The notes under the pieces: model-generated
Database searches by the model: none
What the model was told of the DNA's origin: nothing
The model's input: only the letters and a program-made list of their open reading frames with translations
Shown here: piece after piece, positions 31,564 through 54,012 of the stretch
Numbering within the stretch: position 1 is the first letter of the stretch
Layout of the letters: each line of letters begins with the position of its first letter
Translations under genes and position numbers: made by a program
Source: Candidatus Nitronauta litoralis
GTDB lineage: Bacteria; Nitrospinota; Nitrospinia; Nitrospinales; Nitrospinaceae
Direction: 5' to 3'
NCBI GenBank assembly: GCA_015698285.1
Contig: CP048685.1
Span: 2,542,001-2,606,000, forward strand
Length of the DNA stretch: 64,000 nt

Positions 31564-32090
31564 TGTGTTCCCCGTCAGCCAAATCTGGTCCAAAAAAGGT
31601 AAAAAGTTAAGAGACACTTTTGCTGACCTTTCCTATAGTAGGGAGAGCGTTATGAAGAAGGAAGGTATGGTGAAGGAAATTCGTCGTCGGACGCGGAAGA
31701 AGTATTCGTCTGAAGAGAAGATACGGATCGTTCTGGATGGTCTTAAGAGGTGATGAGAGTATTTCGGAAATCTGTTGGCGTGAGGGGATTCCAGGCAACC
31801 TGTATTACCGCTGGAGCAAGGACTTCCTGGGAGGCCGGTAAGAAACGATTGATGGAAGATACGGCAAGAGAATCCAACTTAACTGAGGTTGTGGATTTAA
31901 AGAAGGAGAATGGGTATCTCAAGCAGTTGGTTGCCGAAATGCCTCTGAAGAACCGAGTCCGTAAAAGTCTGAATGGCACGGATTCAGAGGACATCGATAT
32001 ATGAGATACGGACCATCTTAGAAGCGAGAGATCATCCGGGTTGTTGAGGAGTCGGAGCTATCAGTCGCCGGAGTTTAAGGGGACTGGGAG
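31564..32090 (+). pseudogene. Degenerate IS3-family transposase remnant (orfA and start of orfB)
   Basis: From ATG 31651 the frame reads 'RRRTRKKYSSEEKIRIVLDGLKR', a typical IS3-family OrfA start. It is broken by a one-base insertion near 31745, continues as 'RGDESISEICWREGIPGNLYYRWSKDF', and is broken again near 31830. It resumes as 'AGKKRLMEDTARESNLTEVVDLKKENGYLKQLVAE'. After orfA, 'KREIIRVVEESELSVAGV' resembles an OrfB N-terminus with a stop inside. The rest of orfB is gone. The element's leader (31564-31655) recurs inverted at 4.4 kb. It cannot move by itself. Confidence 0.8.
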
Positions 32091-32211
32091 TCCACGGCTA
32101 AAAACCTAACGCGACAAGTCCATTCTGATCCACATTCGGCTCACGGGAAAAAGATATTAATAATGTAATAAATTAAACACAAAAAGATGTTAAAAGTTGA
32201 TTTTTATCTCG

Positions 32212-32649
32212 TTACTTCGAATTACATTTGGAACAAATCCCGAAAAACTCCAACGAATGAGTGATATCTGAATAGCCCTTATCTCGAATCAATTTTTCAC
32301 TTTCAGATAGAAAACAAAAATTCATTTTAGCGATGCTTTTACAAATGCGGCAAATAATATGATGGTGGTGGTTTTCCATATCTCTGTATTCATACCGTTG
32401 CACCTCGTTACCCAGATAGTGCCTTTCCACAAGTTTCGCATTTTCGAATTGAACAATGCTCCGATAAACGGTCGCCAAATCGCAAGCCTTATTTCCTAAT
32501 CCCTCATGAATCTCCTCAACTGAAAACGGACCATGGTTTTCAAGTAAGAAACCCAATATATTTTTTCTAGGTTCCGTAACGTTTAAATTATTTTTCTTTA
32601 TCAACTGTTCCGCCTTTTTCACTATTTCTTTGTGGACGGTTGTCTTCAT
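32212..32649 (-). CDS. Fur-family metalloregulator (candidate Zur/Fur)
   Basis: 145 residues. A winged-helix DNA-binding domain ('LNVTEPRKNILGFLLENHGPFSVEEIHEGL..DLATVYRSIVQFENAKLVERHYLG') is followed by the metal-binding region 'RYEYRDMENHHHHIICRICKSIAKMNFC' and a C-terminal 'GICSKC'. The two CxxC pairs build the structural zinc site and the 'HHHHI' run the sensory site of Fur/Zur/PerR proteins. Which metal it senses cannot be told from sequence. The surrounding zinc-type genes and the repeated palindromes at 37 and 40 kb make a Zur-like role likely. It follows the sufU-like gene by 34 bases and is probably co-transcribed. Confidence 0.85.
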   Translation of the reverse strand: MKTTVHKEIVKKAEQLIKKNNLNVTEPRKNILGFLLENHGPFSVEEIHEGLGNKACDLATVYRSIVQFENAKLVERHYLGNEVQRYEYRDMENHHHHIICRICKSIAKMNFCFLSESEKLIRDKGYSDITHSLEFFGICSKCNSK

Positions 32650-32683: not shown

Positions 32684-33136
32684 TCATTCCGTATTCACCA
32701 CTTCGTTCTTATCCAGCGCGCCGATCATGGTATGCCAGGAAAGGCTGGCACATTTGATACGTGAAGGAAACTTGCGCACTCCCAGAAATAAGGTCAGTTT
32801 CCCCAAATGGTGTTCGTTGTTTTCAGGCTCGAACTCACCCAGCACCATTTTGTGAAACTCCCCGAAAATCACCCGGGACTCATCGACTTTCTTCCCTTTC
32901 AGGCAGGTAGTCATGAGCGAGGCACTGGCCTTGGAGATGGCGCATCCAGCACCGGTAAAACTAAGGTCCTGGATGACGTTTTCTTCATCCACCTTTAAAT
33001 AAATTTTATAGTCGTCGCCGCACAACCGGTTGTACCCGTGGCAGCAGTGGGTCGAGTCTTCCATTTCTCTGAAATTCCTAGGCTTTTTGTTATGCTCCAG
33101 AATCACCTGTTGGTACAACTCGTTGGAATAAGCCAT
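32684..33136 (-). CDS. SufU-type iron-sulphur scaffold/sulphur-transfer protein
   Basis: 150 residues of the IscU/NifU-N fold with the three conserved cysteines: 'NRLCGDDYKI' (about 39), 'FTGAGCAISKAS' (about 65) and 'SRIKCASLSWHTM' (about 128). The insertion of about 20 residues before the last Cys marks the SufU subtype, which binds zinc and takes sulphur from SufS. No SufS or SufBCD gene is close; its neighbour is a Fur-family regulator. The spacer between this gene and the PepSY gene (33137-33260) shows nothing. Confidence 0.85.
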   Translation of the reverse strand: MAYSNELYQQVILEHNKKPRNFREMEDSTHCCHGYNRLCGDDYKIYLKVDEENVIQDLSFTGAGCAISKASASLMTTCLKGKKVDESRVIFGEFHKMVLGEFEPENNEHHLGKLTLFLGVRKFPSRIKCASLSWHTMIGALDKNEVVNTE

Positions 33137-33260: not shown

Positions 33261-34766
33261 TTATCTTTGCTCAGTTGCTTTAATGGATACGTAATTGCTG
33301 GAATGAACTTTGATCCTTCGACTATTCCAAAGTTTCTTCCATCCTACGACCACCCCGGTTACGCTTAAGCTAAATCCAAGAATAAGAAAAGAGATTATGA
33401 CGATATCCCAGACAGGGCGATGATTGCTGAATCCAGGGAAATCAAAACTATGCAAGCCGTTGTACAACCAACGGTAAGCTCGTCTACTCTGATCCATTAC
33501 TGAAACGAGAGCTCCTGTTTCCATGTCTACATGGACCCATGTTTTTTCCGGGTCATTTATTTCAACCCGAAGAGTTTTCGGCGGTAAAGAGCCTTCTCTC
33601 AGGTTGGTGTATCTATCAAATTTATCCAATTTATAAACACCTTTTATCTCAAATCCTGACCAGCCTTTTTTCACAGCACTTACTAATTCTTTTTCAGAAA
33701 ATTGAGAAGGAACCAAATTATATTTTTGACCAAGACTCAAAAGCTTTGATTTGTTTTCGGTTCTAATCAATACATAGACTTTCCCGTCTACAGAAAAAAA
33801 TTGGGCTTCTTTGAATGATCCTAAACCGCGGAGCGTAGCGGAGGAAATGTTCGAGACTGCTTGATCTAATGATAATCCACGAAATTTTTCTAAATTAAAC
33901 CTAGAAGGGGTAGGGCTTGAAAAGAGTCGTCCATGGTCCATTGATAACCACCCACTGAAGATCCATGTAAGGGTCACTACGCCGCCCAGGATTCCCAATG
34001 TTTGATGCCACTTTAGCCAGCCTTTGTATGGGTTCAGAAGTGAGTTGCTTTTTCTTCGTTGATTCCACAAAGATGAAAACCCGGTCCATAATCCCGAAAG
34101 AACCATTGCTATTCCAGCAAGTGAGAGCCACCAGACTAAGAAGCTCCAAAGATCGTGATGTTTGCGAAGAATTGTAGGGTATATCCAATGAATCACAGCG
34201 CCCAGATAACCCCAAAAACGCTCATCTTCAAATGTTTGTTGCATGGGCTCACCAGTCCTTTGTGAATAATAAATTTCTTCGGAGCCGGGATCGTTCAGTT
34301 TCAGTTTATAAAACGGTCTATATGAATTAAAACGGTGGTGCACAATCCATTGGTCGAATTCTATTGGGCCTTCAATCTCGGTGACAGGGGTGTTTGAAAT
34401 GGAACTAAAAGAATTGACTATCAAATCCTTTTTTAAAAATTGAACGAGCTCACCATTGTCGGCCCAAACTGCTCGAACCGGCCCTGTATTCGGTTCCAAC
34501 ACATAAACCCCTCGTTCCCCCAAACCAATAATACGCAACCGGTTTAAAGTAGATAGTTTTCCACTCTCAATCGCTTCCGCAGGGGATATATGAATGCGTG
34601 ACGAATCTATAAGTTGGCTATAATCCCACCGCTCAGTATCAGAGAGAGAAGGGAATGGAACGTATAAAAGGACCGCTCCACTTGCAAACCATCCCGCAAA
34701 AAACAGGCAAAGTATTACACCAAACCATCGGTGAATTCTCACAATACCTTTGGTTACCAAACTCAT
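33261..34766 (-). CDS. PepSY-domain transmembrane protein
   Basis: About 501 residues with membrane helices near 10-32, 185-235, 270-290 and 450-475, and PepSY-like periplasmic regions between them. 'GIVRIHRWFGVILCLFFAGWFASG' and 'WLKWHQTLGILGGVVTLTWIFSGWLSM' are the His-containing helices of PepSY-associated membrane proteins, thought to reduce ferric siderophores or act in metal uptake. ATG 34766 lies 4 bases after the TonB receptor stop; an upstream in-frame start at 34790 would overlap that gene. It forms an operon with the receptor. Confidence 0.8.
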   Translation of the reverse strand: MSLVTKGIVRIHRWFGVILCLFFAGWFASGAVLLYVPFPSLSDTERWDYSQLIDSSRIHISPAEAIESGKLSTLNRLRIIGLGERGVYVLEPNTGPVRAVWADNGELVQFLKKDLIVNSFSSISNTPVTEIEGPIEFDQWIVHHRFNSYRPFYKLKLNDPGSEEIYYSQRTGEPMQQTFEDERFWGYLGAVIHWIYPTILRKHHDLWSFLVWWLSLAGIAMVLSGLWTGFSSLWNQRRKSNSLLNPYKGWLKWHQTLGILGGVVTLTWIFSGWLSMDHGRLFSSPTPSRFNLEKFRGLSLDQAVSNISSATLRGLGSFKEAQFFSVDGKVYVLIRTENKSKLLSLGQKYNLVPSQFSEKELVSAVKKGWSGFEIKGVYKLDKFDRYTNLREGSLPPKTLRVEINDPEKTWVHVDMETGALVSVMDQSRRAYRWLYNGLHSFDFPGFSNHRPVWDIVIISFLILGFSLSVTGVVVGWKKLWNSRRIKVHSSNYVSIKATEQR

Positions 34767-34770
34767 CAGC

Positions 34771-36948
34771 CTAAAACCTATAATGAGCATTTAATTGAAA
34801 ACCACGAGGAGCACCCAGCAATACCTCAGAGGTATAGAACGGGTCCTGCCAATAGGCATATTTTTCGTCAAACAGGTTAGTTACTTTAGCGGTAAACTTA
34901 ACTGGCCCCCAAGTGTATGACCCGAAAACATCAGCGACTGTATAGTCTTCCAAAGTAATTATGTTGGCATTGTCTCCGAATCGATCACCGACATAGCGAA
35001 CCGCTGCCCCAACTTCAATAGGCAAATTCGCAATATTTTGATAGCTGGTGATGAAATTTGCCGTCCACTTCGCAACATTCGGTGGTGTATTCCCAGAGTT
35101 GGCTCCAAAAACTCCAAAGTTGGCATTTGTATAGGCGAAATTGCCCCCGATATTCCAATCCTTCGTAATTTCGAATGCGCCATCCACCTCTACTCCATCG
35201 GAAAACTGGCTTCCAATATTCTGAACGGCCCCACCTGGTCCTCCCGGAGATAATATGTTGGTCCGTTCAATGTCGAAATATGCCAATGTAATATGACCTC
35301 GATCCTCTAAAAATGAACCTTTTAATCCGATTTCCCACTGCCGGGCATTGGTCAAATCAAAGTTCTGATTACCATTCACTACAAAAATATTGGACCCTAT
35401 CGGATCCGCACCGGTGCTCCACTGAAAATATCCAGACCAGGCAGGAGTCACATCGTAAACAATGCCAGCCCGCCAACTCAGAGGCTCAAAGTCTCGTTGA
35501 AAAGCATTTCTCGTATTGAAGCTTCCATCCAGATTGAAGCTATCTCGATCAAGGTCAATGTGATCGTAGCGAAAACCCGCGACAGCTCGAAATTTATCAG
35601 TTATCTTCAATGTTTCTTCCATGAATACGGCAATGGTCTCAATGACCGTAGGATTTCGGAATGACGCAGATAGATTGGGGAAACTTCCCGGTGTAGGATT
35701 GAATGGATTAACACTGTCAAAATTTCCGAAGAACCGGCTGTTTCTGACAAAATCAACGTGCTGGTAATCCACCCCCACAAGAGTGCGGTTAGAGCGACCT
35801 AGAATTCTATTATCGAGTTTGGCAGTAAAACGATTTCCCAGAGTAACCTGCTCATGGCCTACGAAAAATCGGTCACGATCAATCAATCCGGTTCCTGAAT
35901 TGAACGAAAAAGTTTCGGAATTGGCCCAAGCTCGTTCGGCATCAAAGTAATAAAAGGTATTTTTTAATTGTATTTCATTCGTAGCTTTAAAACTGATATC
36001 ACCTCGTGTGAAATGCTGGGTTGACTCCGCAAGATGATCGGCAACATTAAAATTGAGGAACCGCATACGCCGATCCAGAGTGCGACCATCCTTTGTTGAA
36101 ATTACGCCCGACAGAGGCTGGGTCGCAAACGCCTGAGAAACCAGCGGGGTTCCCCAATAATTTGCAAGGTCATCGTCAAGAAAATCGTATTGGAATTTCA
36201 CATCAAATCGATCATTGGGCCGCCAAAGGATAGAACCTGTGCTATTGAGAGATCGTGTTCCACCATCGTCTACATAACCGCTGGTGCCGGTTTGACTGAT
36301 ATCTGTTCTGAACCAGATGTTATTTCCAATCGGACCCCCAAAGCCACCAGCTGCCATGTAGTTATCAAAACGCCCATAAGAAGCTAAAACCTCACCAGTG
36401 TACGCTTCATTTTTGACAGGAGATTTTGTAACCATATTTATAACACCGCCGATCACTCCCTGACCCTGAAGGACAGATGCAGGCCCCTTTAACACTTCTA
36501 TTCTGTCTAAATTAAATGAATTAGAGGGTCGGCCCACCATCCCTGCGGGTCCCAACCAGATTCCGTCACGTAAAATATGAATCTGATTTGCAGAGAAACC
36601 TCGCATCGAAAATGACATTTGAGCCGCCGGTGGATTTCCCGCAATAATTCCTGGCATTCGTTCTATTGCTTCGGACGGGGTAAAGTATCCTCGGTTCATC
36701 ATTACCGAATTTTTTTCAATATGGACACTTGCAGGGGTTTCCCGAATGCTAAGACCAAGTCGGCTTGATGTTTCTGATGGAGTTTCAAGAAGTGTTTCCT
36801 TGGCAAAAATAGGAATCTCATCGAGTACTAATTTCGACGAGGTTTTTGAGGAATTTGAATAATCGGTTTTTGAATCGTCAGACATTGCTAAAACAGGGAG
36901 TATCATAATTATGAAAACGGCAAATGTACTGACAACAATTTTATTCAT
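34771..36948 (-). CDS. TonB-dependent receptor, siderophore-receptor type
   Basis: 725 residues. A signal peptide ('VSTFAVFIIMILPVLA') is followed by a plug domain ('IRETPASVHIEKNSVMM', 'ERMPGIIAG', 'SFSMRGFSANQIHILRDG', 'IEVLKGPASVLQGQGVIGGVINMVTKSP') and a 22-strand barrel ending in Phe ('GFQLNAHYRF'). The plug resembles ferrichrome/pyoverdine-type receptors. It imports a metal chelate across the outer membrane with TonB energy; the substrate could be a siderophore or a zinc chelate. Three copies of the island palindrome lie about 330-420 bases upstream. It is co-transcribed with the PepSY gene. Confidence 0.88.
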   Translation of the reverse strand: MNKIVVSTFAVFIIMILPVLAMSDDSKTDYSNSSKTSSKLVLDEIPIFAKETLLETPSETSSRLGLSIRETPASVHIEKNSVMMNRGYFTPSEAIERMPGIIAGNPPAAQMSFSMRGFSANQIHILRDGIWLGPAGMVGRPSNSFNLDRIEVLKGPASVLQGQGVIGGVINMVTKSPVKNEAYTGEVLASYGRFDNYMAAGGFGGPIGNNIWFRTDISQTGTSGYVDDGGTRSLNSTGSILWRPNDRFDVKFQYDFLDDDLANYWGTPLVSQAFATQPLSGVISTKDGRTLDRRMRFLNFNVADHLAESTQHFTRGDISFKATNEIQLKNTFYYFDAERAWANSETFSFNSGTGLIDRDRFFVGHEQVTLGNRFTAKLDNRILGRSNRTLVGVDYQHVDFVRNSRFFGNFDSVNPFNPTPGSFPNLSASFRNPTVIETIAVFMEETLKITDKFRAVAGFRYDHIDLDRDSFNLDGSFNTRNAFQRDFEPLSWRAGIVYDVTPAWSGYFQWSTGADPIGSNIFVVNGNQNFDLTNARQWEIGLKGSFLEDRGHITLAYFDIERTNILSPGGPGGAVQNIGSQFSDGVEVDGAFEITKDWNIGGNFAYTNANFGVFGANSGNTPPNVAKWTANFITSYQNIANLPIEVGAAVRYVGDRFGDNANIITLEDYTVADVFGSYTWGPVKFTAKVTNLFDEKYAYWQDPFYTSEVLLGAPRGFQLNAHYRF

Positions 36949-37272
36949 CCTTTTTAGATCCTTATGAATTTATTTAGTGACGTTTTTTGCCTTTACCCTT
37001 TGAGTCAGGGCAAAAAAATAGAGTTGATTCTCTCCAATGGCTCAGGTTGAATCCTTAGCTGAACTGCGCTTCTTCACTGCATAAAAATATGAGCGTTTCT
37101 ATGAAAGTTGTTTGCCTGCGATGTACAGAGGTATTAGCTTTACTGGAAACCGACCTTTTTTGATGCCCTCAAAACCCGAGACCGGAAGCAGAATCCCCAT
37201 GGAGGAGGTAATGTTCTGAAGAAAACCTTCCGGCCCCGAGAGGCCTGAGAACTTTTAACTCTTGATATTTTT

Positions 37273-37292
37273 TTTGCAAACTATTTGCAAAA
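37273..37292. promoter_or_regulatory. Metalloregulator-type palindrome, site 1
   Basis: TTTGCAAACTATTTGCAAAA: two TTTGCAAA blocks around CTA, so the arms are inverted repeats. It is one of three sites in the 627-bp divergent spacer between the TonB receptor (minus strand) and the 37576 gene (plus strand). The remainder of that spacer (36949-37272) has no supported gene. Confidence 0.6.
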
Positions 37293-37325
37293 TTTAAGCG
37301 ACAAACTATCTCACGAAGGCCATAA

Positions 37326-37343
37326 TTGCAAGTCATTTGCAAA
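37326..37343. promoter_or_regulatory. Metalloregulator-type palindrome, site 2
   Basis: TTGCAAGTCATTTGCAAA, the same pattern with weaker symmetry (GCAAG-TCA-TTTGC). It lies 33 bases after site 1 and just before site 3. Confidence 0.5.
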
Positions 37344-37348
37344 ATTTA

Positions 37349-37364
37349 TTGCAAATAGTTTGCA
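37349..37364. promoter_or_regulatory. Metalloregulator-type palindrome, site 3
   Basis: TTGCAAATAGTTTGCA, the core of which is identical to the site at 40054-40070. TATAGA follows at 37370, so the site would overlap a promoter -35 region reading to the right, consistent with repression of the 37576 gene. Confidence 0.6.
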
Positions 37365-37575
37365 TTTTTTATAGAATGTTCGTGCTTTGGGAGAATAATT
37401 TGAGGATTTAAAAGGTTTCATCTCTGGTAAAACGTCTACTCCCTGTAGAAAGGGAGGTGAATGAAGAAAAAATTGAAGGAAAGTATTGAAAAATAAAATC
37501 TTACCCGGTTCCGAAAAATTCTTATTCCAAGTCAAGCATCGGAAACAAAAAATAGATATCCAGGAGAACAAATAA

Positions 37576-38190
37576 GTGGATTACCGATTTATTCCCATCC
37601 GTAGGGGAACTTGGTGGAAGCATATAAGCACTCAAACGGTTTCAGGCCAATCGCTGGAAGACGCATCGGAAGGTGAGCTTGGCACTGTATTGTCGGTTCT
37701 CAGAGATACATTACTTTTTAATTGGCAGAAGGTTATGTTCGGCCCCTGGATGCAGGGAGTGATTTTCGAAATGGCATTTGACGAAAAGCCAATAATGAAT
37801 TTGAAGAACGGATATTTAACGGTAGGGGCATCATCCAGTTTGTCTCATTTTCATTTCTGTGTAATAAACCCACAGGAATTCCATCGACAAGAAAAGACTA
37901 AGGAGATTGATAATAATAAAGTCTGTAGCAAGATTGGGTTTTTCTCAAAAGAACCGAAACATGAGAACACAATCCTCGAGTATGGAATTCGTTTTTGGAA
38001 TAAAAAAGATGAGGAAATGCTGACGATATTTTTTCCATTTCCAAAACTAAACTCTGATAAAAAACTTATCCGGTTTCAAGACTGGACTAACATTCAGTTG
38101 TGGAATGATCTGATAATAAAATACTCTGGAAGTTCCTCAAATACCATTAGAGCAAGCCAAATTGAACGGTTCAGCTTACTTAAATTTTAA
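37576..38190 (+). CDS. Unrecognised protein with His-rich strand, metal-island gene
   Basis: 204 residues, no signal or membrane segment. The start is GTG with AGGAGAA 8 bases upstream. 'WMQGVIFEMAFDE', 'NLKNGYLTVGASSSLSHFHFCVI' and 'LEYGIRFWNKKDEEMLTIFFPFPK' are alternating strands. The 'HFHFCV' strand, followed by a long gap and 'W/F-x-F' strand pairs, resembles each half of the protein at 44643. I do not recognise the family. It lies downstream of three copies of the palindrome, so it is probably metal-regulated. Confidence 0.6.
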   Translation: MDYRFIPIRRGTWWKHISTQTVSGQSLEDASEGELGTVLSVLRDTLLFNWQKVMFGPWMQGVIFEMAFDEKPIMNLKNGYLTVGASSSLSHFHFCVINPQEFHRQEKTKEIDNNKVCSKIGFFSKEPKHENTILEYGIRFWNKKDEEMLTIFFPFPKLNSDKKLIRFQDWTNIQLWNDLIIKYSGSSSNTIRASQIERFSLLKF

Positions 38191-38343
38191 AAATTAGCCC
38201 GATGGATCAAGGGGCGCTCTTTGTATTTGTATTGTATGACTGCCAAGAAATAGCGCCTGATGATAGTACATTTCATTTTTAACTCTCCATTATTCGCCTC
38301 CAGAACAACTCGCTTTCTATCTCCTTTTCAGATTAAACATTAA

Positions 38344-39576
38344 ATGCTGAAAAAATTTAAACCCACCGAAATGGATGAGCGCATTGATCAATTAGATGCT
38401 GTGCGGGGCTTTGCCTTGATCGGGATCTGCATCGCAAATCTGGTAAGCTTCGCCGGATTTTACGTGATGACTCACTCTCAAAGAGAGAATTTACCTTGGG
38501 CATCAATGGATCCTGGAGTTCTATTTTTTATCGATTGGCTAGTGGAGGGAAAGTTTTATTCAATATTCTCCCTGCTTTTTGGGATGGGATTCTGGCTACA
38601 AGCCACGAGAGCTGACAAATCCATAAGTTCGTTTAAAGTTTTTTGGTTGCGTCGAATGGGAGCTTTACTTCTTTTTGGTGTTGCACACATGTTCCTTATT
38701 TGGCCTGGTGACATTCTGATGCTTTATAGCGCTATGGGAATAATCCTTCTGTTGTTTATAAAAGCTTCGTCCAGGAAATTGCTGTTATGGGTTGTATTGC
38801 TGCTCTCTTTACCCTGGCTGATCCAATGGGTTGCATTTTTTACGTCAGATCATATTTTTTGGAAGTCCCTCGCTCAGCTAAGTGAGCGCTTGAAAGAACA
38901 ATGGGGTTTTGGCGGACGTTCATTGTTTGATATGCAAACGTCTAATTCTGTGTTTGACCATATACTATCTAATTTTTTTAGAGCCGTTGAACGGCCGATG
39001 AGCTATTTAAAATCTGGAAGACCCATGCAAGTATTGGGACAGTTCTTACTGGGTATGTGGATTGCGCGAGAAATATTGTTCAACATGGAAGGAAAGCAAA
39101 CCCTTTTTTATGCCTGGGGAAAATGGATGGGTGGAGTAGGATTATTTACAGGTTTGGTTTATGCGTCTATTAAAGGATTTACCGGCTCTCCATGGTCTCC
39201 AGATGAAACAGGAATATTGCAGTCTCTGGCATATCACATCAGTTGCACTTCTCTCGCCCTTTGGTATATCAGGTTGATTTGGCAAAATTGGCTTTACAAG
39301 AGGTGGCGAAAAATTTTTAGATGGTTGGTCCCGCTTGGACGAATGCCCCTTACAACTTATTTAACTCAAAGCATTATTGGATTGTGTTTGTTTTATGATT
39401 TTGGGCTTGGCTGGAGGGGTTTCATGCCATTTTCAGGATTGATTCCGATAACTCTTTTAATAATTATTCTCCAGCAAAATTTTTCACGTTGGTGGCTAAG
39501 CCGAAGGACTCGGGGACCGCTGGAATCACTTTGGCGACTGCTGGCTTATGGGGATTTACGAGTGAAGCAACCATGA
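38344..39576 (+). CDS. DUF418 (YeiB-like) membrane protein
   Basis: 410 residues. The N-terminus 'DERIDQLDAVRGFALIGICIANLVSF' is the DUF418/YeiB signature (R-G-x-A-x-x-G-I-x-x-x-N). About nine hydrophobic helices follow, and the C-terminal 'WLVPLGRMPLTTYLTQSIIG' is the second conserved block. This fits an acyltransferase-like membrane family of unknown role. It follows the 37576 gene after 150 bases that contain an inverted repeat (GGCGCT..AGCGCC). Confidence 0.85.
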   Translation: MLKKFKPTEMDERIDQLDAVRGFALIGICIANLVSFAGFYVMTHSQRENLPWASMDPGVLFFIDWLVEGKFYSIFSLLFGMGFWLQATRADKSISSFKVFWLRRMGALLLFGVAHMFLIWPGDILMLYSAMGIILLLFIKASSRKLLLWVVLLLSLPWLIQWVAFFTSDHIFWKSLAQLSERLKEQWGFGGRSLFDMQTSNSVFDHILSNFFRAVERPMSYLKSGRPMQVLGQFLLGMWIAREILFNMEGKQTLFYAWGKWMGGVGLFTGLVYASIKGFTGSPWSPDETGILQSLAYHISCTSLALWYIRLIWQNWLYKRWRKIFRWLVPLGRMPLTTYLTQSIIGLCLFYDFGLGWRGFMPFSGLIPITLLIIILQQNFSRWWLSRRTRGPLESLWRLLAYGDLRVKQP

Positions 39577-39640
39577 GTTATGCCAACTTCTTGACGGAGA
39601 TTAATTTAACTTCGGTAGGTATAGAGCGTAGGTGAAATGA

Positions 39641-39988
39641 TCATAGTATAGGACCCGGAGGGTGGGGGATCGAACCCATTTTTAAAACATTAGATGATTG
39701 GAACTCGATTCTCCAGGATTCCTCCCCGGATAATTCTCCGTTACCCCAACGGTTGAATTGCCAAATAGCTTGTCCTCCGGAATCCCCAATTATTGCCTCA
39801 ATATCAGCTTCCCATCTAAAAATCTTATCCAATTCATCAAAACTCAGATATCCGGAATCACTCCTGATCCTGGCTCCATGAAATTCCAGATTCCAATTCC
39901 GACCTGAATTTGTCGAAAAAGCCCGTTTCCTTCCTTCGTCCATTGGATTTCGCCATTTTTCCCTTCGAAATTGCCTATTTGAAGGCAA
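39641..39988 (-). pseudogene. Fragment with IS1380-like transposase N-terminus
   Basis: The open minus-strand frame contains 'NLEFHGARIRSDSGYLSFDELDK', which resembles the start of IS1380-family transposases (..F-D-G-x-R-L-T-S-D-A-G-L-L-L-L-R-E-L-D..). The rest of the enzyme is missing and the remaining residues are unlike it. This is judged by eye; it may be a decayed insertion sequence or a chance frame. Confidence 0.35.
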
Positions 39989-40053
39989 CTCCGCCTGTAG
40001 TAAGCGGGAAAAATGAAACTATTTAATTTGGACAGTAGATATTAAAAAATATT

Positions 40054-40070
40054 TTTGCAAATAGTTTGCA
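40054..40070. promoter_or_regulatory. Metalloregulator-type palindrome, site 4
   Basis: TTTGCAAATAGTTTGCA, the same core as site 3 at 37349, about 80 bases before the 40151 start. Confidence 0.6.
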
Positions 40071-40103
40071 TTTTTTTAAAAAGCATATTATGGTGGCCAT
40101 AAG

Positions 40104-40128
40104 AAATTTGCGAACTATTCGCAAATTT
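40104..40128. promoter_or_regulatory. Metalloregulator-type palindrome, site 5 (best symmetry)
   Basis: A perfect inverted repeat with 11-bp arms: AAATTTGCGAA and its exact complement around CTA. It ends 22 bases before ATG 40151, so a bound protein would block translation-proximal transcription of the COG0523 gene set. Confidence 0.7.
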
Positions 40129-40150: not shown

Positions 40151-40786
40151 ATGCCAATTCAAAATACCCTGGTGGCGGAAGATCGTTCTTCGTTTTCTAT
40201 CGATCCTTCCCCTTATTTTCGGGGGCTGATCAAAGTTAAAAAGTTTGCCGAGATTTTAATGAGCCAGCAGCTTTGGTGTTTTGGAAAGGATATTAAGAAC
40301 CCGGGAAATAATTTACTCATTCGGTACGGCTTGGAAAAGTTTCGCCCACCCAAAAGACTCGACGGCAGCACAAATTATATCGCCACAATAAATGGAGAAG
40401 TCAGATTGATTCTATGGGGTTTTGGAATTTATTTTGGGTGTGGCAATAACAGCGGCGTCTACCTTGGGCGTTTCGATTTTTACCCAAAATTAATTGGCGA
40501 AGTACCGTTGAATCCTCCTTTCTGGTCGTCTTCTGCTCTTCCTGATTTAGTGCCGCCCTCAAACGAAGAAGAATGGGAGCACTCCTTTGGATTGATCTCA
40601 GAGTTTTGTGAATGGGCGACCCGTTATGAGGATTGGGTAAACCAAGTAATGGGTAATTCGTACCGAGTGAGTTGCCTGGAAGATTGGGATCAGCAAACCG
40701 TTTTCAGCGACGACATGGCAGGAGCTTGGAACCGCTTGGCGAATTACTTTGGACAGCACCTCGTGTCAAACAAATTTTCAATTTAA
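40151..40786 (+). CDS. Unrecognised protein heading the COG0523 operon
   Basis: 211 residues, soluble, no signal. Visible features are 'PYFRGLIKVKKFAEILMSQQLWCFGKDIKNPGNNLLIRYGLEKFRPP', a strand-rich middle 'EVRLILWGFGIYFGCGNNSGVYLGRFDFYPKL', and an aromatic C-terminal helix region with many Trp. I do not recognise the family. It is preceded by two palindromes and followed 40 bases later by the small Cys protein, so it is part of the same metal-regulated operon. Confidence 0.6.
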   Translation: MPIQNTLVAEDRSSFSIDPSPYFRGLIKVKKFAEILMSQQLWCFGKDIKNPGNNLLIRYGLEKFRPPKRLDGSTNYIATINGEVRLILWGFGIYFGCGNNSGVYLGRFDFYPKLIGEVPLNPPFWSSSALPDLVPPSNEEEWEHSFGLISEFCEWATRYEDWVNQVMGNSYRVSCLEDWDQQTVFSDDMAGAWNRLANYFGQHLVSNKFSI

Positions 40787-40826
40787 ATGCTGCTCTGTTT
40801 TAAGAAGAAATGGAAAACCTAACCTT

Positions 40827-41087
40827 ATGCAAAATCTTTTTGGCAAAAACCAGGAAAAGAATGTTGCGGCAATTTTGGAAATTAAAAATTGGGTGCGGGA
40901 AGTTTTTAAGTTGAATGAAAACGAAAGCATTCTTGTCACAGAATTGCAATGTCATGAAGAGGGGTGCCCGCCTATTGAAACGGTAATCGTTATTTTGAGA
41001 GAGGGAACCAAAAAAGAACAGTACAAGTTTCATAGGCGGATAAACGAAATTAATTTTGAGGATATTGCTGAACTACCAAAGCGATAA
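40827..41087 (+). CDS. Small Cys-His protein, COG0523 partner
   Basis: 86 residues. The central motif 'TELQCHEEGCPPIETVIVILREG' (C42, H43, C47) and the ending 'KFHRRINEINFEDIAELPK' are, to my knowledge, seen in small proteins encoded next to COG0523 GTPases and WD40 proteins in other proteobacteria. The Cys/His pair could bind zinc. The start is ATG 40827; the longer frame from 40749 would overlap the previous gene. It lies 19 bases before the GTPase gene. Confidence 0.65.
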   Translation: MQNLFGKNQEKNVAAILEIKNWVREVFKLNENESILVTELQCHEEGCPPIETVIVILREGTKKEQYKFHRRINEINFEDIAELPKR

Positions 41088-41106
41088 CGAAAAGCAGAGG
41101 AATGCA

Positions 41107-42462
41107 ATGAGTATTGAACAACCAATCGAAACAGTACCAGTAACCGTTTTAACCGGATTTCTCGGAGCCGGCAAAACAACCTTGTTGAATTACATATTGA
41201 CTGAAAACCATGGGAAAAGAATAGCTGTTATTGAAAATGAATTTGGAGAACTCGGCATTGATAACGATTTGGTTATTAATGCAGAGGAAGAAATCTTCGA
41301 AATGAATAACGGTTGTATTTGCTGCACTGTCCGGGGAGACCTGATTCGGATTCTTGGAAATTTAATGAAGCGGCGAGACAAGTTCGATTACATTTTGCTC
41401 GAAACTACCGGTTTGGCGAATCCAGGCCCAGTAGCTCAAACGTTTTTTATGGACGACGAGATTGGCGCGAAACTATCGCTAGACGGCATCGTGACGGTTG
41501 TTGACGCCAAACATATCAACGACCGGATAGAGGATAGCAGTGAAACGCGGGAGCAAATTGCTTTTGCCGATGTGATGCTTATCAATAAAACGGATTTGGT
41601 TGCGCCTGAAGAGCTCATTGCCTTGGAAACGAGACTCCGAAAAATGAATGGGGCTGCCAAGATTTTTCAAACTAAAAACACAAAGATCGATTTGGAAAAT
41701 ATATTGAATATCTCTGCCTTTGATTTGCAGCGATCCCTGGAGACTAACCCCAAGTTCCTTGAGCCAGAATATCCATTCGAATGGTGTGGAATATTCGAAC
41801 TTGATGCAGGTCATTACCAGTTCACTCTTCAAGAAGGGCCAGATCCCGGAATGAAAGTTTGCCTGGGCCAGGCTTCACAAGCGAACCAAGACGAAATAAA
41901 ACAGTCGATAGAACCCACAGTTCTGACCTTTTCCGAGGAAAAGGAAACTTTGCATTCTGAAGACTCTCTAAAACCAAACGGTAAGCTGTTTTATTTAGAC
42001 CTTCAATCTGATCAGTCTCAGTTTTTCATACATATTCCAATAAAAGGTTCTTACATTTTGTTCTCCGAACACATGCCAGAAGAATTTAACGCTAAGTTAA
42101 AAAATGAAAATGGAGAAACAATCCAGCCCGAAGTCTCGCAAATTTTTAATCCTGACCATGAGCACGACGACGAAGTTTCTTCTGTTGGAATAAGCCTGGC
42201 CGGAGACCTGGATCAGGAAAAGCTCAATCAATGGCTAGGGATTATTCTTCAAACCAAGGCCGTAGATATCTATCGAATGAAAGGAGTCTTAAGTATAAAA
42301 GATCAGCCTAATCGGTTTGTTTTCCAGGGAGTCCACATGCTTTTTGATATTACTTCGGAAAAACCTTGGGGAGACAAAAAGCGGGAAAGCAATCTGATTT
42401 TCATAGGCCGAAATTTGGACCGTAGTTTTTTTGAAGATGGAGTTCGTTCGTGCCTAAGCTAA
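41107..42462 (+). CDS. COG0523 (CobW/ZNG1-like) metallochaperone GTPase
   Basis: 451 residues. Walker A '[15 protein letters not shown]' (P-loop about 18-26), the metal-binding 'GCICC' (C70, C72, C73), '[12 protein letters not shown]' (Walker B/switch), 'INKTDLV' (guanine specificity), and a C-terminal CobW-C domain with '[27 protein letters not shown]'. Acidic and His-rich segments lie before it ('[14 protein letters not shown]'). Such GTPases deliver zinc or cobalt to client proteins under metal shortage. ATG 41107 has GAGGA upstream. It overlaps the WD40 gene by 13 bases. Confidence 0.92.
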
Positions 42463-43496
42463 AAAAAACAAGTCACAAAAAGAACGGCAAACCGCTGTTG
42501 CAGGAATGGTCGCAATCAATAGGAGACTACGTTATTGATCTTTCCTGGTCCCCTGACGGCTCTTCTCTGGCTGCAGCTGAAACCAGTGGGCCCATTACAA
42601 TTTTTGATTCTGAGCATGGAAACAAAATATCCGTTGCTTCTGGCCATAGTTTTGGAACCTCTCAAATTGGATGGAGTTCAGTAGGAGAGAATTTTGCCAG
42701 CGCCGGTCTGGATGGGTTAATTCGATACTGGAATTTGGATGATCAGGCAAAAGAGATTCGCTCCATGGAGGGAGGCTCGTCCTGGGTCGAAAACTTGGCA
42801 TGGCACCCCCATGGTAAATATTTAGCCACTAGCGCAGGAAAGTATTTGCGATTGTGGAATTCGGAGGGTGAGTTGTTGGCTGATTGGAGTGACTATGAAA
42901 GCACCATTGCCGATATTGCATGGTCTCCATCCGGTGATTGTGTGGTTGCCGCAACTTATGGCGGGCTTACCTTCCGCTTCCCAGAGCAACCGGACAGACA
43001 GCGAAAATTTGAATGGCAAGGTTCTTCGTTGAAAATCGCCTGGAGTCCCGATGGAAAATTTATTGCGACCGGTGATCAGGATTCGACGATTCATTTTTGG
43101 GATGTTGAAAGCGGTCAAGACAGTCAAATGTCTGGTTATCCCACCAAAGTACTACCATTAACTTGGAATTCTACAAGTAGATATCTGGCGACCGGAGGGA
43201 GCAATACAGTAATTCTCTGGGATTGTTCGGGGAAAGGTCCTCAAGGCACTGATCCTATCCCACTGGAAAAACATAAAGAACTGATTTCTGCAGTGGCTTT
43301 TCAGAATAATGGACCGCTCCTGGCTTCCGCCGATCAATCAGGGTTGGTCGCAATATGGAATAACGAAGAGTCTAAGAAACCACTAGCCACTGTCAATTTT
43401 GACTCTGAGGTCACTCAACTGGTCTGGGCACCCAACGATGAATCTATCGCCGTTGGCGACAATCTTGGAAACATAATTTCAATGAAACTGAATTGA
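42450..43496 (+). CDS. WD40-repeat beta-propeller protein 1
   Basis: 348 residues, with WD40 repeats starting near 22 ('VIDLSWSPDGSSLAAAETSGPITIFDSE') and recurring about every 42 residues, each with the 'W-S-P-D-G' turn and a closing W/F-D-type strand ('LIRYWNLDDQ', 'STIHFWDVESG'). About seven blades are visible. It would form a cytoplasmic propeller that holds protein partners. GTG 42450 overlaps the COG0523 gene. WD40 proteins next to COG0523 GTPases occur in other bacteria; their job is not established. Confidence 0.85.
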   Translation: MPKLKKTSHKKNGKPLLQEWSQSIGDYVIDLSWSPDGSSLAAAETSGPITIFDSEHGNKISVASGHSFGTSQIGWSSVGENFASAGLDGLIRYWNLDDQAKEIRSMEGGSSWVENLAWHPHGKYLATSAGKYLRLWNSEGELLADWSDYESTIADIAWSPSGDCVVAATYGGLTFRFPEQPDRQRKFEWQGSSLKIAWSPDGKFIATGDQDSTIHFWDVESGQDSQMSGYPTKVLPLTWNSTSRYLATGGSNTVILWDCSGKGPQGTDPIPLEKHKELISAVAFQNNGPLLASADQSGLVAIWNNEESKKPLATVNFDSEVTQLVWAPNDESIAVGDNLGNIISMKLN

Positions 43497-43532
43497 AAAA
43501 ACACGATTCTCCAAATCCTATGGTTCAAAAGT

Positions 43533-44639
43533 ATGAAAATTAAACAAGACCTGATTCAACAGGATGTATTAGACGAATACATTATTGATCTTGACTGGTC
43601 TCTAAGCGGAGATTATTTAGCCGCTGTTACTGGCAGTGGTCAAGTTGCTTTAAGAAACATGAAATCTGATGGCCATTGGATCGAGCTTGGTCGACATAAG
43701 CATGGCATTAATTCCATGCAATGGCATCCTTACGAAGCCTTATTGGCAAGTGCAGGGCATGATGGAAAATTGACTTTATGGGATATATCGTTAATGAGCG
43801 AAGCATGGAGTCAGGATTTGGGAGGGTGGATTGACTGTTTAAGCTGGAGTTCCCTTGGATATTATTTAGCTTCTTCATCAGGAAAAAATTTAAGCATATG
43901 GAGTTATTCGGGAAAACACGAACAGTTTTGGCTCAATCCTAAAAGTTCTATCTCGGACATTGAATGGTCTCCAGATGGTCGTTTTATTGCGTCTACCGCC
44001 AAAGGGGGAATCACGATAAGAGGATATGGGCATTTGGAAACAACTCAATTACTTGAATGGCATGGCTTCCCAGTAAAAATAGCCTGGCAGCCAAATGGAA
44101 AGCATATTGCCATGGGAGACGAAGAAGCAGTTCATTTTTGGGAAGTTGAAACTGGCATGCATCATCCCTTGTTCGGTTACAACTCCAAAGTCTCTAAAAT
44201 GTCCTGGAGTTCCGACGGCAGTTATTTAGCGACTAATGATAGAGAAAACCTGGTGATCTGGGATTGTGGCAGAAAAAAATCTGACAACGAAGAATTGTTC
44301 CCTTTGGTGGATTTGATTTCTAAAGAAAGTTTGGTTGGTCCAGGGTGCAGGGCCCCTATTTTACTTAAACAGCATGCAGGTGCAATAAAATCTCTGGTTT
44401 TCCAAAAGAAGGGAGGATTGTTAGCCTCCGGAGATGAAAGAGGAGAGGTTCATATTTGGAATCTAAAAATATCAAAAGCTCCTGTTGAAAGTATCTCCCT
44501 TGGTTATCCAATTTCAAAAATCGCCTGGTCTCCAGATGGGCAAGGCATGGCTGTAGGCGGAACAGAGGGAACAGTATCAATTTTTTCTTTTGATCTCACC
44601 GAAAAGGCGGGTGCTTCAGTCAGTCTTAAGGAGTTGTAA
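43533..44639 (+). CDS. WD40-repeat beta-propeller protein 2
   Basis: 368 residues with repeats like those of the gene just upstream ('YIIDLDWSLSGDYLAAVTGSGQVALRN', 'SISDIEWSPDGRFIASTAKG', 'EAVHFWEVETGMHH', 'GEVHIWNLKI', 'KIAWSPDGQGMAVGG'). The two propellers are tandem paralogues with the same order of blade variants. One insertion of about 25 residues near 255 ('EELFPLVDLISKESLVGPGCRAP') is unique to this copy. It is separated from the first by 36 bases and from the next gene by 3. Confidence 0.85.
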   Translation: MKIKQDLIQQDVLDEYIIDLDWSLSGDYLAAVTGSGQVALRNMKSDGHWIELGRHKHGINSMQWHPYEALLASAGHDGKLTLWDISLMSEAWSQDLGGWIDCLSWSSLGYYLASSSGKNLSIWSYSGKHEQFWLNPKSSISDIEWSPDGRFIASTAKGGITIRGYGHLETTQLLEWHGFPVKIAWQPNGKHIAMGDEEAVHFWEVETGMHHPLFGYNSKVSKMSWSSDGSYLATNDRENLVIWDCGRKKSDNEELFPLVDLISKESLVGPGCRAPILLKQHAGAIKSLVFQKKGGLLASGDERGEVHIWNLKISKAPVESISLGYPISKIAWSPDGQGMAVGGTEGTVSIFSFDLTEKAGASVSLKEL

Positions 44640-44642
44640 CGT

Positions 44643-45815
44643 ATGCAAAAGGTGTCAGTTACCCGGGGAGGTCCAGCCCCCGACCCAGTAGGCGAAGCCG
44701 ACTCGAAATTCATGGCGGTCATCGCATTTTTTCATGGGGTAATCAATGACTGGATTCAAGACGCGCAAACGACGATTGCCTGCGGCTGCTGGGCCGATGG
44801 AGCCGTCAGCGAGATTATTCCAGCGGGGCGCGCCCAACTACTCCCGGCCCGCTATCAAGGGTGTTTTGCGGGTGTCCGCGAAATCCTATTGGACGACGGC
44901 CCCCATCACCTTCATATCGATTTAGGGCGTGTGCACAGGGTCTGCTATGCCATCGCCCCCAGCGTTTGCCTGGCCTTCAAGCCGGCGCTTGAGGTCCGCT
45001 TTTTGATTGTCGGACCAGGCGGCGCGCCCACTGATCGCTGGGTGCTTTCGCTGATGCCGGACTGCCCTTACCGGGAAGACCAGCTTGATGAAGCAGTGGT
45101 TCATCGTTTCATCGAGCGATTGCGCTTGCACGCCAAACAGGCTCCGGGTTTAGTCGAACTGTCTGTCGACTCTGAAGTCCGAAAAAGTCCTCAAGGTGCG
45201 GCCTTGCTAAGTCAGATGCAAGAGGCGACGGACCAAATTGACACAGGTTGGGACGGTGTAATTAAGGCTCTGGCACCAAACCATAATCACGGTTCGACTG
45301 TTGAAACGATGGATCCGCCATGCTTACCGCTGCTAAGCGAAGCTCTGGACCTGAAAGAGTCCAGTCTCGTTATCTACAGGGAGCGTACGCTTGTGGAATT
45401 TCAGACCGAGAAGATCGACGGAGTTCACCGATATGTGGAACAAGGCCATGTTTCCTGGCAGATCGGCGGGCTGCAGGATCACCACTGCCACCTCGCTCTG
45501 GGATCGGTCCACCGTGTGCTGTTCTCCGCCGAGCCGGTATCCTGCCAAGGGGGAGGCCTTAACTACACCATTTGGTTCTTGACCTCCGGTCCATCCGGGA
45601 ACCCATGGCGCCGCGATGGATACTTTTCGGTGGTGTTGAACCGTCCTTATAGAGGGAATGTCCCCCGGTTGGAGGTCATCAAGCCCATGCTGGACCTTTA
45701 CCAAAGGTATCGCAAGGAACCCTGGGTGCAGGCGGACGAAAGGTTCTTGAACACACTCGAACGGGGTGTGCCCGATCGCCGACAACAGCAACTGGTGTCA
45801 GTAGGGAGTGAATGA
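44643..45815 (+). CDS. Internally duplicated protein with HxH strand motif, not recognised
   Basis: 390 residues, soluble, built of two similar halves. The first has 'HHLHIDLGRVHRVCYAIAPSVCLAF' and 'EVRFLIVGPGGAPTDRWVLSLMPDCPY'. The second has 'HHCHLALGSVHRVLFSAEPVSCQGG' and 'NYTIWFLTSGPSGNPWRRDGYFSVVLNRPYRG'. The shared HHxHxxLGxVHRV block could bind metal. Each half also resembles the 37576 protein. The gene follows the second WD40 gene by 3 bases, yet looks richer in G and C than its left neighbours, which suggests a separate origin. No function is claimed. Confidence 0.65.
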   Translation: MQKVSVTRGGPAPDPVGEADSKFMAVIAFFHGVINDWIQDAQTTIACGCWADGAVSEIIPAGRAQLLPARYQGCFAGVREILLDDGPHHLHIDLGRVHRVCYAIAPSVCLAFKPALEVRFLIVGPGGAPTDRWVLSLMPDCPYREDQLDEAVVHRFIERLRLHAKQAPGLVELSVDSEVRKSPQGAALLSQMQEATDQIDTGWDGVIKALAPNHNHGSTVETMDPPCLPLLSEALDLKESSLVIYRERTLVEFQTEKIDGVHRYVEQGHVSWQIGGLQDHHCHLALGSVHRVLFSAEPVSCQGGGLNYTIWFLTSGPSGNPWRRDGYFSVVLNRPYRGNVPRLEVIKPMLDLYQRYRKEPWVQADERFLNTLERGVPDRRQQQLVSVGSE

Positions 45816-46015
45816 TGCCAAGATTGAATCTCGAGGATGCGCGTGCTGTTGGAGCCGCTGTTGAATACGCACTATCAACACTTCCACAGAATGCACCGCA
45901 GCGCCCGAACTGGGAAAGAGCTTTTGATCGTCTGCATCTTCGACTGAAACTCGCCGAACAGGGGATTCGTCATCAAAGGCGAAAGCATTCGAAACTTGGC
46001 CCAGCCAATGACTGA
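45812..46015 (+). CDS. Small basic helical protein, unknown
   Basis: 67 residues, mostly helix ('NLEDARAVGAAVEYALSTLP', 'WERAFDRLHLRLKLAEQGIRHQRRKH'). It overlaps the previous stop by 4 bases, so it is probably coupled to the duplicated-domain gene. Its base composition is similar to that neighbour. No motif is recognised. Confidence 0.45.
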   Translation: MMPRLNLEDARAVGAAVEYALSTLPQNAPQRPNWERAFDRLHLRLKLAEQGIRHQRRKHSKLGPAND

Positions 46016-46154
46016 GGATTTTACATCACGACATGCCAGGGTTTAAGGCCCGAGCCCTAGCGCAACATCTGGACCAGGTTTCGGAGGGCAAGTCACATTG
46101 CTTGTGTGATGATTACCTGGCACAAGCGACTTAACAAAACAGGGAAAGTATTCA

Positions 46155-46583
46155 ATGAAAACAGCACAAGAGGTAACAGATAAATTGGCCATAGGCTTAT
46201 CGCTGATGTGTGCCATCCATTGCCTGGCTCTAACAACTCTATTGGCATTGCTGCCCAGTTTGGTGGCTTTACAACTGGATAACGAGGCTTTCCATCTCTG
46301 GATGGTCGTGGCCGTAATCCCCAGCAGTGTTTATGCCTTAACTTTGGGGTGTAAACAACACAAGCGATATCGGTTGCTCATCCTGGGTTTCATGGGATTA
46401 ACGCTACTTGTTATGGCGTTAGTTTTGGGAGAAGAGCATATCGGTGAGGCAGGAGAAAAATTACTTACGTTTCTAGGGACCTGTTTCGTTGCGGTTGGGC
46501 ACTGGTTCAATTATCGCCTTTGTCGATCACAAAAAGATAGTGACTGTGTCTGCCCAAACCATAAAAACCAAGGCTTAATATGA
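46155..46583 (+). CDS. MerC-domain membrane protein
   Basis: 142 residues with four membrane helices. The first contains 'LSLMCAIHCLALTTLLAL', the MerC-type C-x-x-H-C pair; Cys-rich C-terminus 'DCVCPNHK'. MerC proteins move mercury, and relatives are found in zinc-starvation loci. It overlaps hisI by 4 bases, so it opens the zinc-sparing gene set. The 140-base spacer upstream holds an imperfect palindrome (TCACA..TGTGA) and no match to the island palindrome. Confidence 0.8.
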   Translation: MKTAQEVTDKLAIGLSLMCAIHCLALTTLLALLPSLVALQLDNEAFHLWMVVAVIPSSVYALTLGCKQHKRYRLLILGFMGLTLLVMALVLGEEHIGEAGEKLLTFLGTCFVAVGHWFNYRLCRSQKDSDCVCPNHKNQGLI

Positions 46584-46999
46584 AACGGGACTATTTTATC
46601 GCTCTCGAGCAACATAAGAACAACAGCTCACTGGCGTTGCTGGAAGTCATCGACCAGCTAGCCTTCAATGACCAGGGCTTAATCCCCGTAATCACTCAGG
46701 ACGCAAATACTAAAACCATGCTTATGTTTGCCTGGATGAATAAAGAAGCGCTCCATAAAACAATTGTAAACAAACGCATGACTTACTGGTCGCGGAGCCG
46801 CCAACAACTGTGGGTAAAAGGTGAAACCAGCGGCCACGTGCAACGGGTGGTCTCCATGTCATTTGATTGTGATGGTGATGCAATCCTCTGCCAGGTAGAA
46901 CAGCAAGGTGCCCCCTGCCATACCGGCAGGCCATCCTGTTTTTATTTAAACGTAGAGGCCGACAATCAACAGGTTGTTGTAAAAGGAGATCACGCCTGA
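46580..46999 (+). CDS. hisI: Phosphoribosyl-AMP cyclohydrolase
   Basis: 139 residues. It converts PR-AMP in histidine synthesis. The conserved core is 'LMFAWMNKEALHKTI', 'TYWSRSRQQLWVKGETSGHVQ' and 'DCDGDAILCQVEQQGAPCHTGRPSCF', with the zinc-ligand cysteines and the DxDxD magnesium site. A leading extension of about 33 residues is longer than in short HisI. It sits with MerC, PyrC-like and FolE2 genes, a grouping known from Zur regulons, where spare copies replace zinc-dependent enzymes. Whether the genome has another hisI is not visible here. Confidence 0.88.
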   Translation: MKRDYFIALEQHKNNSSLALLEVIDQLAFNDQGLIPVITQDANTKTMLMFAWMNKEALHKTIVNKRMTYWSRSRQQLWVKGETSGHVQRVVSMSFDCDGDAILCQVEQQGAPCHTGRPSCFYLNVEADNQQVVVKGDHA

Positions 47000-47001
47000 A
47001 T

Positions 47002-48336: not shown

Positions 48337-48388
48337 TTATCGAGGGCAAAATCATTTTCTTTCAACTTTTTATTCAGGCGTGATTTAA

Positions 48389-49285: not shown

Positions 49286-49362
49286 GCTGATGAGATAAAC
49301 ACCTAGTCCATACACTACTGTTTGAGATTCTAGGATATTTTTCTTATAAGGAACGAGTAAAA

Positions 49363-51197: not shown

Positions 51198-51515
51198 GTG
51201 TGCCTGGTGACTTTTATTAACTTGAAAAATAACAATTCCTCTCAACCCTTCTGGCCTGTCCTGCTCTTGACGGTCTGTTTTGGGTTGGTGGCGTTGTTCG
51301 GGGCTCCGCTTCACGAGCATGACCTGGATCCCTCCCATATAGAATTAGACTGCTCTCAGTGCCACCTTCAGCACACCGGCCTCAGTCTGGAGGCCCCCTC
51401 TCCAGAGCTTCCCTATTTGGTTCCAGCCATTTCCTGGATAGCAGAAGCGTTTATCTCTTGGGTTGCCTACGTTTCTCTGATTTATTTTAGCCGTGCCCCA
51501 CCGGTCTTCCGTTGA
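51198..51515 (+). CDS. Small membrane protein with HxHD and CxxC motifs (copy A)
   Basis: 105 residues. One membrane helix ('FWPVLLLTVCFGLVALFG') is followed by 'LHEHDLDPSHIELDCSQCHLQH', a motif rich in His and acidic residues with a CxxC, then a second hydrophobic stretch and 'SRAPPVFR'. The layout recurs at 54682. The motif looks suited to binding zinc or another divalent metal in the periplasm. It precedes the TonB receptor gene by about 110 bases. No known family is claimed. Confidence 0.55.
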   Translation: MCLVTFINLKNNNSSQPFWPVLLLTVCFGLVALFGAPLHEHDLDPSHIELDCSQCHLQHTGLSLEAPSPELPYLVPAISWIAEAFISWVAYVSLIYFSRAPPVFR

Positions 51516-53853: not shown

Positions 53854-54012
53854 ATGAAAAAAGCGACTCAGTCAATTTTAGACCGATTTTCAAAAGGCTT
53901 TTCGATTGCTCGCACACTTCACTACACCATCTTCTCCTTGATGTTCACTGCCATTTTAACTTTTTCAAGAAACCCCAAAGTTATGAGTTATGGACGATTG
54001 CTGCTCAACTAA
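53854..54012 (+). CDS. Small hydrophobic frame, uncertain
   Basis: A 52-codon frame with AAGGAAAAAAGG upstream encodes a basic start and a short hydrophobic stretch ('YTIFSLMFTAILTF'). It overlaps the start of the CDF gene by 23 bases in another frame, so it may be translated ahead of it. Coding status is doubtful. Confidence 0.25.
   Translation: MKKATQSILDRFSKGFSIARTLHYTIFSLMFTAILTFSRNPKVMSYGRLLLN

Follow-up and report, generated by a model that had tools for sequence, protein, structure and literature searches.

The window, which is the whole 64-kb stretch of DNA analysed here (C1:2542001-2606000 of a 3.92-Mb genome on a single contig), holds five near-identical palindromes of 17-19 bp with the consensus TTGCAAAYWRTTTGCAA, at 37273, 37325, 37348, 40054 and 40104/40107. 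The flanking genes are those described in the original prediction, a TonB receptor/PepSY operon and a COG0523/WD40 operon, and the Fur-family regulator that it placed nearby is encoded at 32212-32649.

32212-32649, minus strand: Fur-family regulator of 145 aa, the proposed cognate Zur-like repressor (Pfam FUR, E 4e-21)
32684-33136, minus strand: NifU_N (IscU/SufU-like) protein, the regulator's partner, which in relatives adjoins the operator pair (domain search)
33261-34790, minus strand: PepSY_TM protein, second gene of the TonB operon (domain search)
34771-36948, minus strand: TonB-dependent receptor of siderophore type, proposed target of sites 1-3 (TIGR01783, 217 bits, cut-off 223.5)
37273-37291: candidate operator site 1, TTTGCAAACTATTTGCAAA, 0 mismatches, 27.6 bits with the held-out matrix
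37325-37343: candidate operator site 2, ATTGCAAGTCATTTGCAAA, 3 mismatches, 22.9 bits, 52 bp from site 1
37348-37366: candidate operator site 3, ATTGCAAATAGTTTGCATT, 3 mismatches, 23.2 bits, 23 bp from site 2
37576-38190, plus strand: DUF7676 protein, encoded divergently from the TonB operon and perhaps controlled by sites 1-3
40054-40072: candidate operator site 4, TTTGCAAATAGTTTGCATT, 2 mismatches, 25.0 bits
40104-40128: candidate operator site 5, AAATTTGCGAA-CTA-TTCGCAAATTT, 11-bp perfect arms, 25.1 bits, 53 bp from site 4
40151-40786, plus strand: first operon gene behind sites 4-5, without a Pfam match; homologs lie beside COG0523 or znuA genes in other phyla
40749-41087, plus strand: small conserved protein, second operon gene
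41056-42462, plus strand: COG0523 (CobW-type) GTPase, putative zinc metallochaperone (Pfam cobW, E 2e-61; CobW_C)
42450-43496, plus strand: WD40 protein
43533-44639, plus strand: WD40 protein
44643-45815, plus strand: conserved operon gene of 390 aa without a Pfam match, at the same operon position in L051
46155-46583, plus strand: MerC-family membrane protein (Pfam MerC, E 4e-29)
46580-46999, plus strand: HisI paralog (NF000768, 168 bits, cut-off 126)
47002-48336, plus strand: PyrC paralog (NF006688, 688 bits, cut-off 535)
48389-49285, plus strand: FolE2, a zinc-independent GTP cyclohydrolase (NF010200, 291 bits, cut-off 215)
49363-50079, plus strand: ZIP-family transporter, last of the co-directional run

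The 12 co-directional genes from 40151 to 50079 could form a single transcript, with no gap between them exceeding 141 bp. The PyrC paralog carries the motif IDDQVHFREPG, in which Gln60 replaces the first histidine of the usual HxH metal motif.

The five palindromes are the only matches within the window to the pattern TTTGCRAAYWRTTYGCAAA when up to three mismatches are allowed. Across 100 dinucleotide shuffles of the window, the mean number of matches was 0.36 and the maximum two; none of the shuffles reached five. To guard against circularity, a matrix was trained on sites of other genomes only. This held-out matrix gives the five sites 22.9-27.6 bits, while the next-best position in the 64 kb scores 9.9 bits and the top score in 30 Markov-simulated 64-kb sequences is 18.8 bits. 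The TTGCAAA half-sites are near-invariant in the site matrix, and where the half-sites change, at 40104-40128, they change symmetrically (GCGAA/TTCGC). This last repeat has the predicted 11-bp perfect arms, matches TTTGCRAAYWRTTYGCAAA at 40107-40125 without a mismatch, and ends 22 bp upstream of the ATG at 40151. All five inverted repeats that had been claimed are present, and beyond chance by both the shuffles and the held-out matrix. A promoter scan around the sites performed no better than on shuffles.

How far does the regulon reach beyond the window? The original prediction counted five sites in just two spacers, which is right for the window but underestimates the regulon, since sites are also present at three or more further loci of the genome. 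The genome scan that it had proposed was carried out by patterns and a sequence profile. With up to two mismatches, the 17-mer occurs 20 times in the 3.92 Mb as against five times for the reversed control; sites are enriched and not spread at random across the genome. Eleven of the 20 are intergenic and stand before metal genes, while the other nine (seven inside ORFs, two at ORF starts) are probably chance matches. The further genomic sites precede only zinc-type loci:

L016:7376, 7387, 7398, 7421 and 7432: ZIP/CDF intergenic array, three sites and two more overlapping
L016:10880: site upstream of genes for a DUF2946-like protein and a receptor of ZnuD type (E 5e-111 with the ZnuD model, under its cut-off)
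L017:6953 and 7004: two sites before a second siderophore-type TonB receptor

The znuABC genes have only a weak candidate site of 15 bits (L097:7515), which was set aside because simulation shows that chance can produce such a score. The second zinc block of the window has no operator site: neither its ZnuD-type receptor (51627-53675) nor its second CDF gene (53990-54619) carries one, unlike their homologs in L016. Both gaps count against an assignment to zinc.

The contigs of the closest homologs are labelled Nitrospinaceae, except for one record under Thaumarchaeota, seemingly a bin with the wrong label. In three of the relatives (G005, G024 and G057), as well as in the related record L052, a fur gene of the window type is divergent from a homolog of the 40151 gene, and two or three sites lie in the intergenic DNA that they share, the outer pair 52-53 bp apart. 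A NifU gene lies between fur and the operator pair in G005, G024 and G057; no NifU ORF was called in L052, in a stretch with ambiguous bases. A pair of sites stands directly before hyp-COG0523 or hyp-MerC-ZnuD genes in G005, G024 and a third and fourth relative (L050, L052). The genes behind the sites run hyp-COG0523-WD40-WD40-(44643 homolog)-MerC-HemB-PyrC in G005, hyp-COG0523-WD40-WD40-ZIP in L052, and hyp-MerC-DUF2946-like-ZnuD in G057. The gene order in the window is that of the relatives except for a TonB/PepSY/DUF7676/DUF418 block between fur-nifU and the promoter. As the flanking parts are adjacent in three relatives, this block (33261-39576) was probably inserted, or else the regulator moved. 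In G013, one site precedes a DUF2946-like gene and ZnuD and adjoins a decayed fur copy; this truncated gene (L091:8199-8480) no longer encodes the DNA-binding part at the N-terminus and is short of several cysteines, with the operator surviving alongside.

A site-profile scan of 64 genomes of the order gave matches at E<0.01 only in G000, G005, G024, G057 and G013. These are exactly the five of the 64 that have a window-type fur gene (the G013 copy being decayed), and orthologs of the regulator occur only in motif-bearing genomes. A hypergeometric estimate of the co-occurrence is 8e-7, for six genomes when a 50% homolog in G001 is counted; the latter lies inside a znuA-ZnuD-HemB cluster in which no site was found. 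The profile, termed R1, was trained on sites from the five motif-bearing genomes, so its matches there are obtained by construction; what is informative is the absence elsewhere, together with the held-out matrix. The co-occurrence is also partly plain linkage, since the regulator and two of the sites travel together; the independent part of this evidence comes from those sites of the window's own genome that are not linked to the regulator. Most single one-mismatch pattern matches in relatives fall in coding DNA and were discarded. The new observations here are the divergent promoter conserved in three or four relatives, the presence of motif and regulator gene in the same genomes, and the unlinked ZIP/CDF/ZnuD sites.

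Could the repeats be AT-rich palindromes that arose by chance, or what is left of a mobile repeat? The sites are AT-rich and a transposase-like remnant lies beside those of L017, but this explanation is extremely improbable. It is opposed by the shuffles, the reversed control, the 64-genome profile scan, the held-out matrix and the symmetrical half-site changes at 40104-40128, and it is refuted by cross-genome conservation, in that position and spacing are kept at the same promoter in three or four relatives. The palindromes are almost certainly the docking sites of a Fur-family repressor encoded nearby.

The protein encoded at 32212-32649 matches the Fur family model (PF01475) with 75.7 bits against a cut-off of 23.1. 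The Tyr-Arg base readers in its recognition helix (ATVYR) and two CxxC pairs for structural zinc, C100xxC103 and C139xxC142, are invariant in the clade alignment. The NCBIfam Zur equivalog NF008646, which was presumably built on enterobacterial Zur, is missed by a wide margin (25 bits, cut-off 167); scores against Fur and PerR models are higher than this, though all below cut-off. Structure-sequence comparison did not serve as an arbiter between Zur, Fur and PerR: the best single PDB sequence match is Mycobacterium tuberculosis Zur, whereas the clade profile fits PerR and Fur structures slightly better than Zur. An AlphaFold2 model of mixed confidence (pLDDT 71) was left out of the reasoning. 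The position of the sensory cysteine in MtZur is occupied by an invariant aspartate (Asp90) in the clade. Cys56 and Cys112 are likewise invariant and, judging from the alignment, could be sensory zinc ligands in a site of two N, one O and one S.

Since the protein itself is not decisive, the metal is inferred from the targets, and zinc is most likely on gene content alone. Taken across the sites, the target set (COG0523 with WD40 genes, HisI, PyrC, FolE2, HemB, ZnuD and ZIP) is that of published Zur and zinc-sparing regulons; operators stand before both zinc uptake and zinc-sparing genes, as expected for Zur. COG0523 genes with WD40 genes are known from zinc-sparing regulons (PMC2770081), and Zur regulons have in common with the present one COG0523 genes by WD40 genes, zinc-independent paralogs and TonB receptors, with COG0523, FolE2, HisI, PyrC, HemB2 and ZnuD as shared members (PMC2770081, PMC6103462). 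Several boxes per promoter are also known there (PMC2770081, PMC6103462). The 32212 protein differs from published Zur regulators in scoring below the Zur equivalog model. The palindromes are probably operators of the 32212 protein, which would act as the Zur of this Nitrospinaceae bacterium. The metalloregulator operator and the Zur-like zinc assignment of the original prediction are both supported; its uncharacterised regulon is uncharacterised for this lineage but not in content, since the genes are those already known for zinc sparing, COG0523 with WD40 among them (PMC2770081).

The operator itself has precedents. As predicted, it resembles neither the gamma-proteobacterial Zur box, for which published boxes differ, nor the classical Fur box GATAATGATAATCATTATC, whose GATAAT hexamers are absent and which the site matrix does not fit. 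Alpha-, Bacillus, actinobacterial and cyanobacterial Zur boxes are also other sequences. However, the matrix does fit the Magnetospirillum-type Fur operator, the inverted repeat TTGCAAATnATTTGCAA. Magnetospirillum gryphiswaldense Fur was co-crystallised on the feoAB1 operator TTAATTGCAAATCATTTGCAATTGC (PMC4506495; PDB 4RAZ/4RB1 series), of which the 17-bp core TTGCAAATCATTTGCAA matches the consensus found here. In both cases a dimer sits, or here would sit, on an inverted repeat, and the base-reading Tyr-Arg pair (ATVYR) is conserved; the Magnetospirillum protein, by contrast, controls iron genes and was studied with Mn/Fe, whereas the targets here are zinc genes and the regulator belongs to another clade. 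A related box of TGCAA type, ATGCAACnnnGTTGCAT, has been predicted as the site of Desulfovibrio Zur (PMC545781). This box, ATGCAACNNNGTTGCAT, is likewise palindromic over about 17 bp, has TGCAA half-sites and stands before zinc genes, but its centre differs (AACnnnGTT here against AAATnATTT), it regulates znuABC-zur, and it is itself a prediction. The suggestion of an undescribed operator class therefore does not hold, because a Fur protein has already been crystallised on TTGCAAATCATTTGCAA.

This precedent raises the alternative that the sites respond to iron or manganese, with either the 32212 protein sensing Fe/Mn as a Fur/Mur-type regulator or canonical Fur binding them, and with TonB/PepSY serving iron-siderophore uptake. 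The identity of the core to an operator bound by an iron/manganese-activated Fur speaks against zinc, as do the two siderophore-type receptors among the targets, and the regulator has no cysteine where MtZur has its sensory one and agrees more closely with Fur/PerR models than with Zur. Nevertheless, this alternative is distinctly unlikely. The other targets are zinc genes (ZnuD, ZIP, CDF, COG0523 with WD40, FolE2, PyrC, HisI and HemB). Fur-family homologs occur in 56 of the 64 genomes of the order, and weaker ones (about 26-34% identical to the 32212 protein) are found in nearly all, yet the motif is present in only five. The motif does not co-occur with the canonical iron fur gene (C1:3480887), and the 6.5 kb around that gene contain no site. 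As an iron-target control, a FeoB search gave generic GTPases only (best E 1e-13), and so offered no feo promoter for comparison. A variant of the zinc reading is somewhat unlikely but conceivable: an Asp90-type zinc sensor of a separate Nitrospinota Fur clade, lacking the cysteine position of actinobacterial Zur, would act on the Magnetospirillum-type operator, and the siderophore-type TonB receptors would import a zinc-chelate (zincophore) instead of iron.

Which of the Fur-family proteins binds the sites? The genome has three: the canonical one, to which the 32212 clade is about 30% identical, the one in the window, and a second paralog (C1:2516917-2517321) that is about 60% identical to the latter and has nearly the same recognition helix. 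This similarity raises the possibility that the second paralog is the main binder, or that both bind, possibly with different metals, and in G005 the second paralog has its own upstream sites (L051:6017-6131). This is unlikely, however, since G024 and G057 have the motif without a second paralog, which makes the 32212 type the better match to the motif. Moreover, G001 has just the 50% homolog, apparently of the second-paralog type, and no motif, while no site lies within 18 kb of the G000 paralog. None of the regulator's plasmid-borne relatives reaches 60% identity, and those among the matches listed stay below 36%.

If the 32212 protein is the regulator, a zinc-bound dimer would occupy each TTGCAAAT-n-ATTTGCAA site and block the promoters. 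Neighbouring sites are 11, 23 or 51-53 bp apart everywhere but at one interval of 91 bp, before the second fur of G005. These spacings are close to whole helical turns, so several dimers can share one face of the DNA; this would apply to the pairs 51-53 bp apart (five helical turns), to the 23-bp pair and to the overlapping 11-bp arrays. A dimer bound at site 5, 22 bp before the ATG at 40151, would hinder the start of transcription. When zinc is short, the sites would be empty and the 12-gene run 40151-50079 expressed, providing the COG0523 chaperone, its WD40 partners, the ZIP transporter, and HisI, PyrC and FolE2 as presumed zinc-independent or back-up enzymes. Outer-membrane receptors (34771 with PepSY, and ZnuD elsewhere) and the ZIP/CDF pair elsewhere in the genome would be expressed as well. 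In the relatives, the regulator is probably autoregulated, since the same sites are found in its own divergent promoter there.

The 11-bp ZIP/CDF array resembles the oligomer-type sites by which Zur reportedly acts on CDF exporters elsewhere. Its arrangement would fit dual control of the kind described for Zur and CDF exporters in Streptomyces coelicolor and Xanthomonas (PMC6103462, PMC5472717), with the difference that here it is known from the DNA arrangement alone.

Among known marine nitrite oxidisers, Nitrospinota are described as the most abundant (PMC10839748, PMC8026999). A literature search found no Zur regulon described in this phylum, which is weak evidence of absence with subscription papers mostly outside its scope. 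The regulon type is familiar, and the novelty lies mainly in the operator used for zinc in a marine nitrite-oxidiser lineage; new in the lineage are the regulator clade and the combination of a Magnetospirillum-type box with zinc genes. An operator familiar from the control of iron genes serves a set of zinc genes here, so the box by itself does not tell the metal specificity. With operator and regulator defined, the genes that respond to zinc limitation become directly accessible, and two siderophore-type receptors as well as several proteins without a name are tied to zinc.

One such protein is encoded by the 40151 gene, whose family has a QQLWCxGxD motif and no Pfam match; further members are L053:7613-8122, L054:8001-8522, L055:8001-8492 and L056:8001-8510. 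The family occurs beside COG0523 genes on two Planctomycetes contigs and near znuA/znuC on one Binatia contig. An AlphaFold2 model of the family (pLDDT 81) had no PDB match at E<=0.001. This is likely an undescribed zinc-starvation protein.

Transposase-like remnants, partly similar to each other in sequence, are found at L017:6500-8800, where they adjoin the L017 sites, and at 31600-32110 in the window, on the downstream side of fur. Small proteins, each of about 100 aa, are encoded ahead of ZnuD genes at L016:10536-10844, at about 51200-51515 in the window and at L050:2419-2727; they have a histidine cluster of the HDHD/HEHD type as well as a CxxC pair and look metal-binding.
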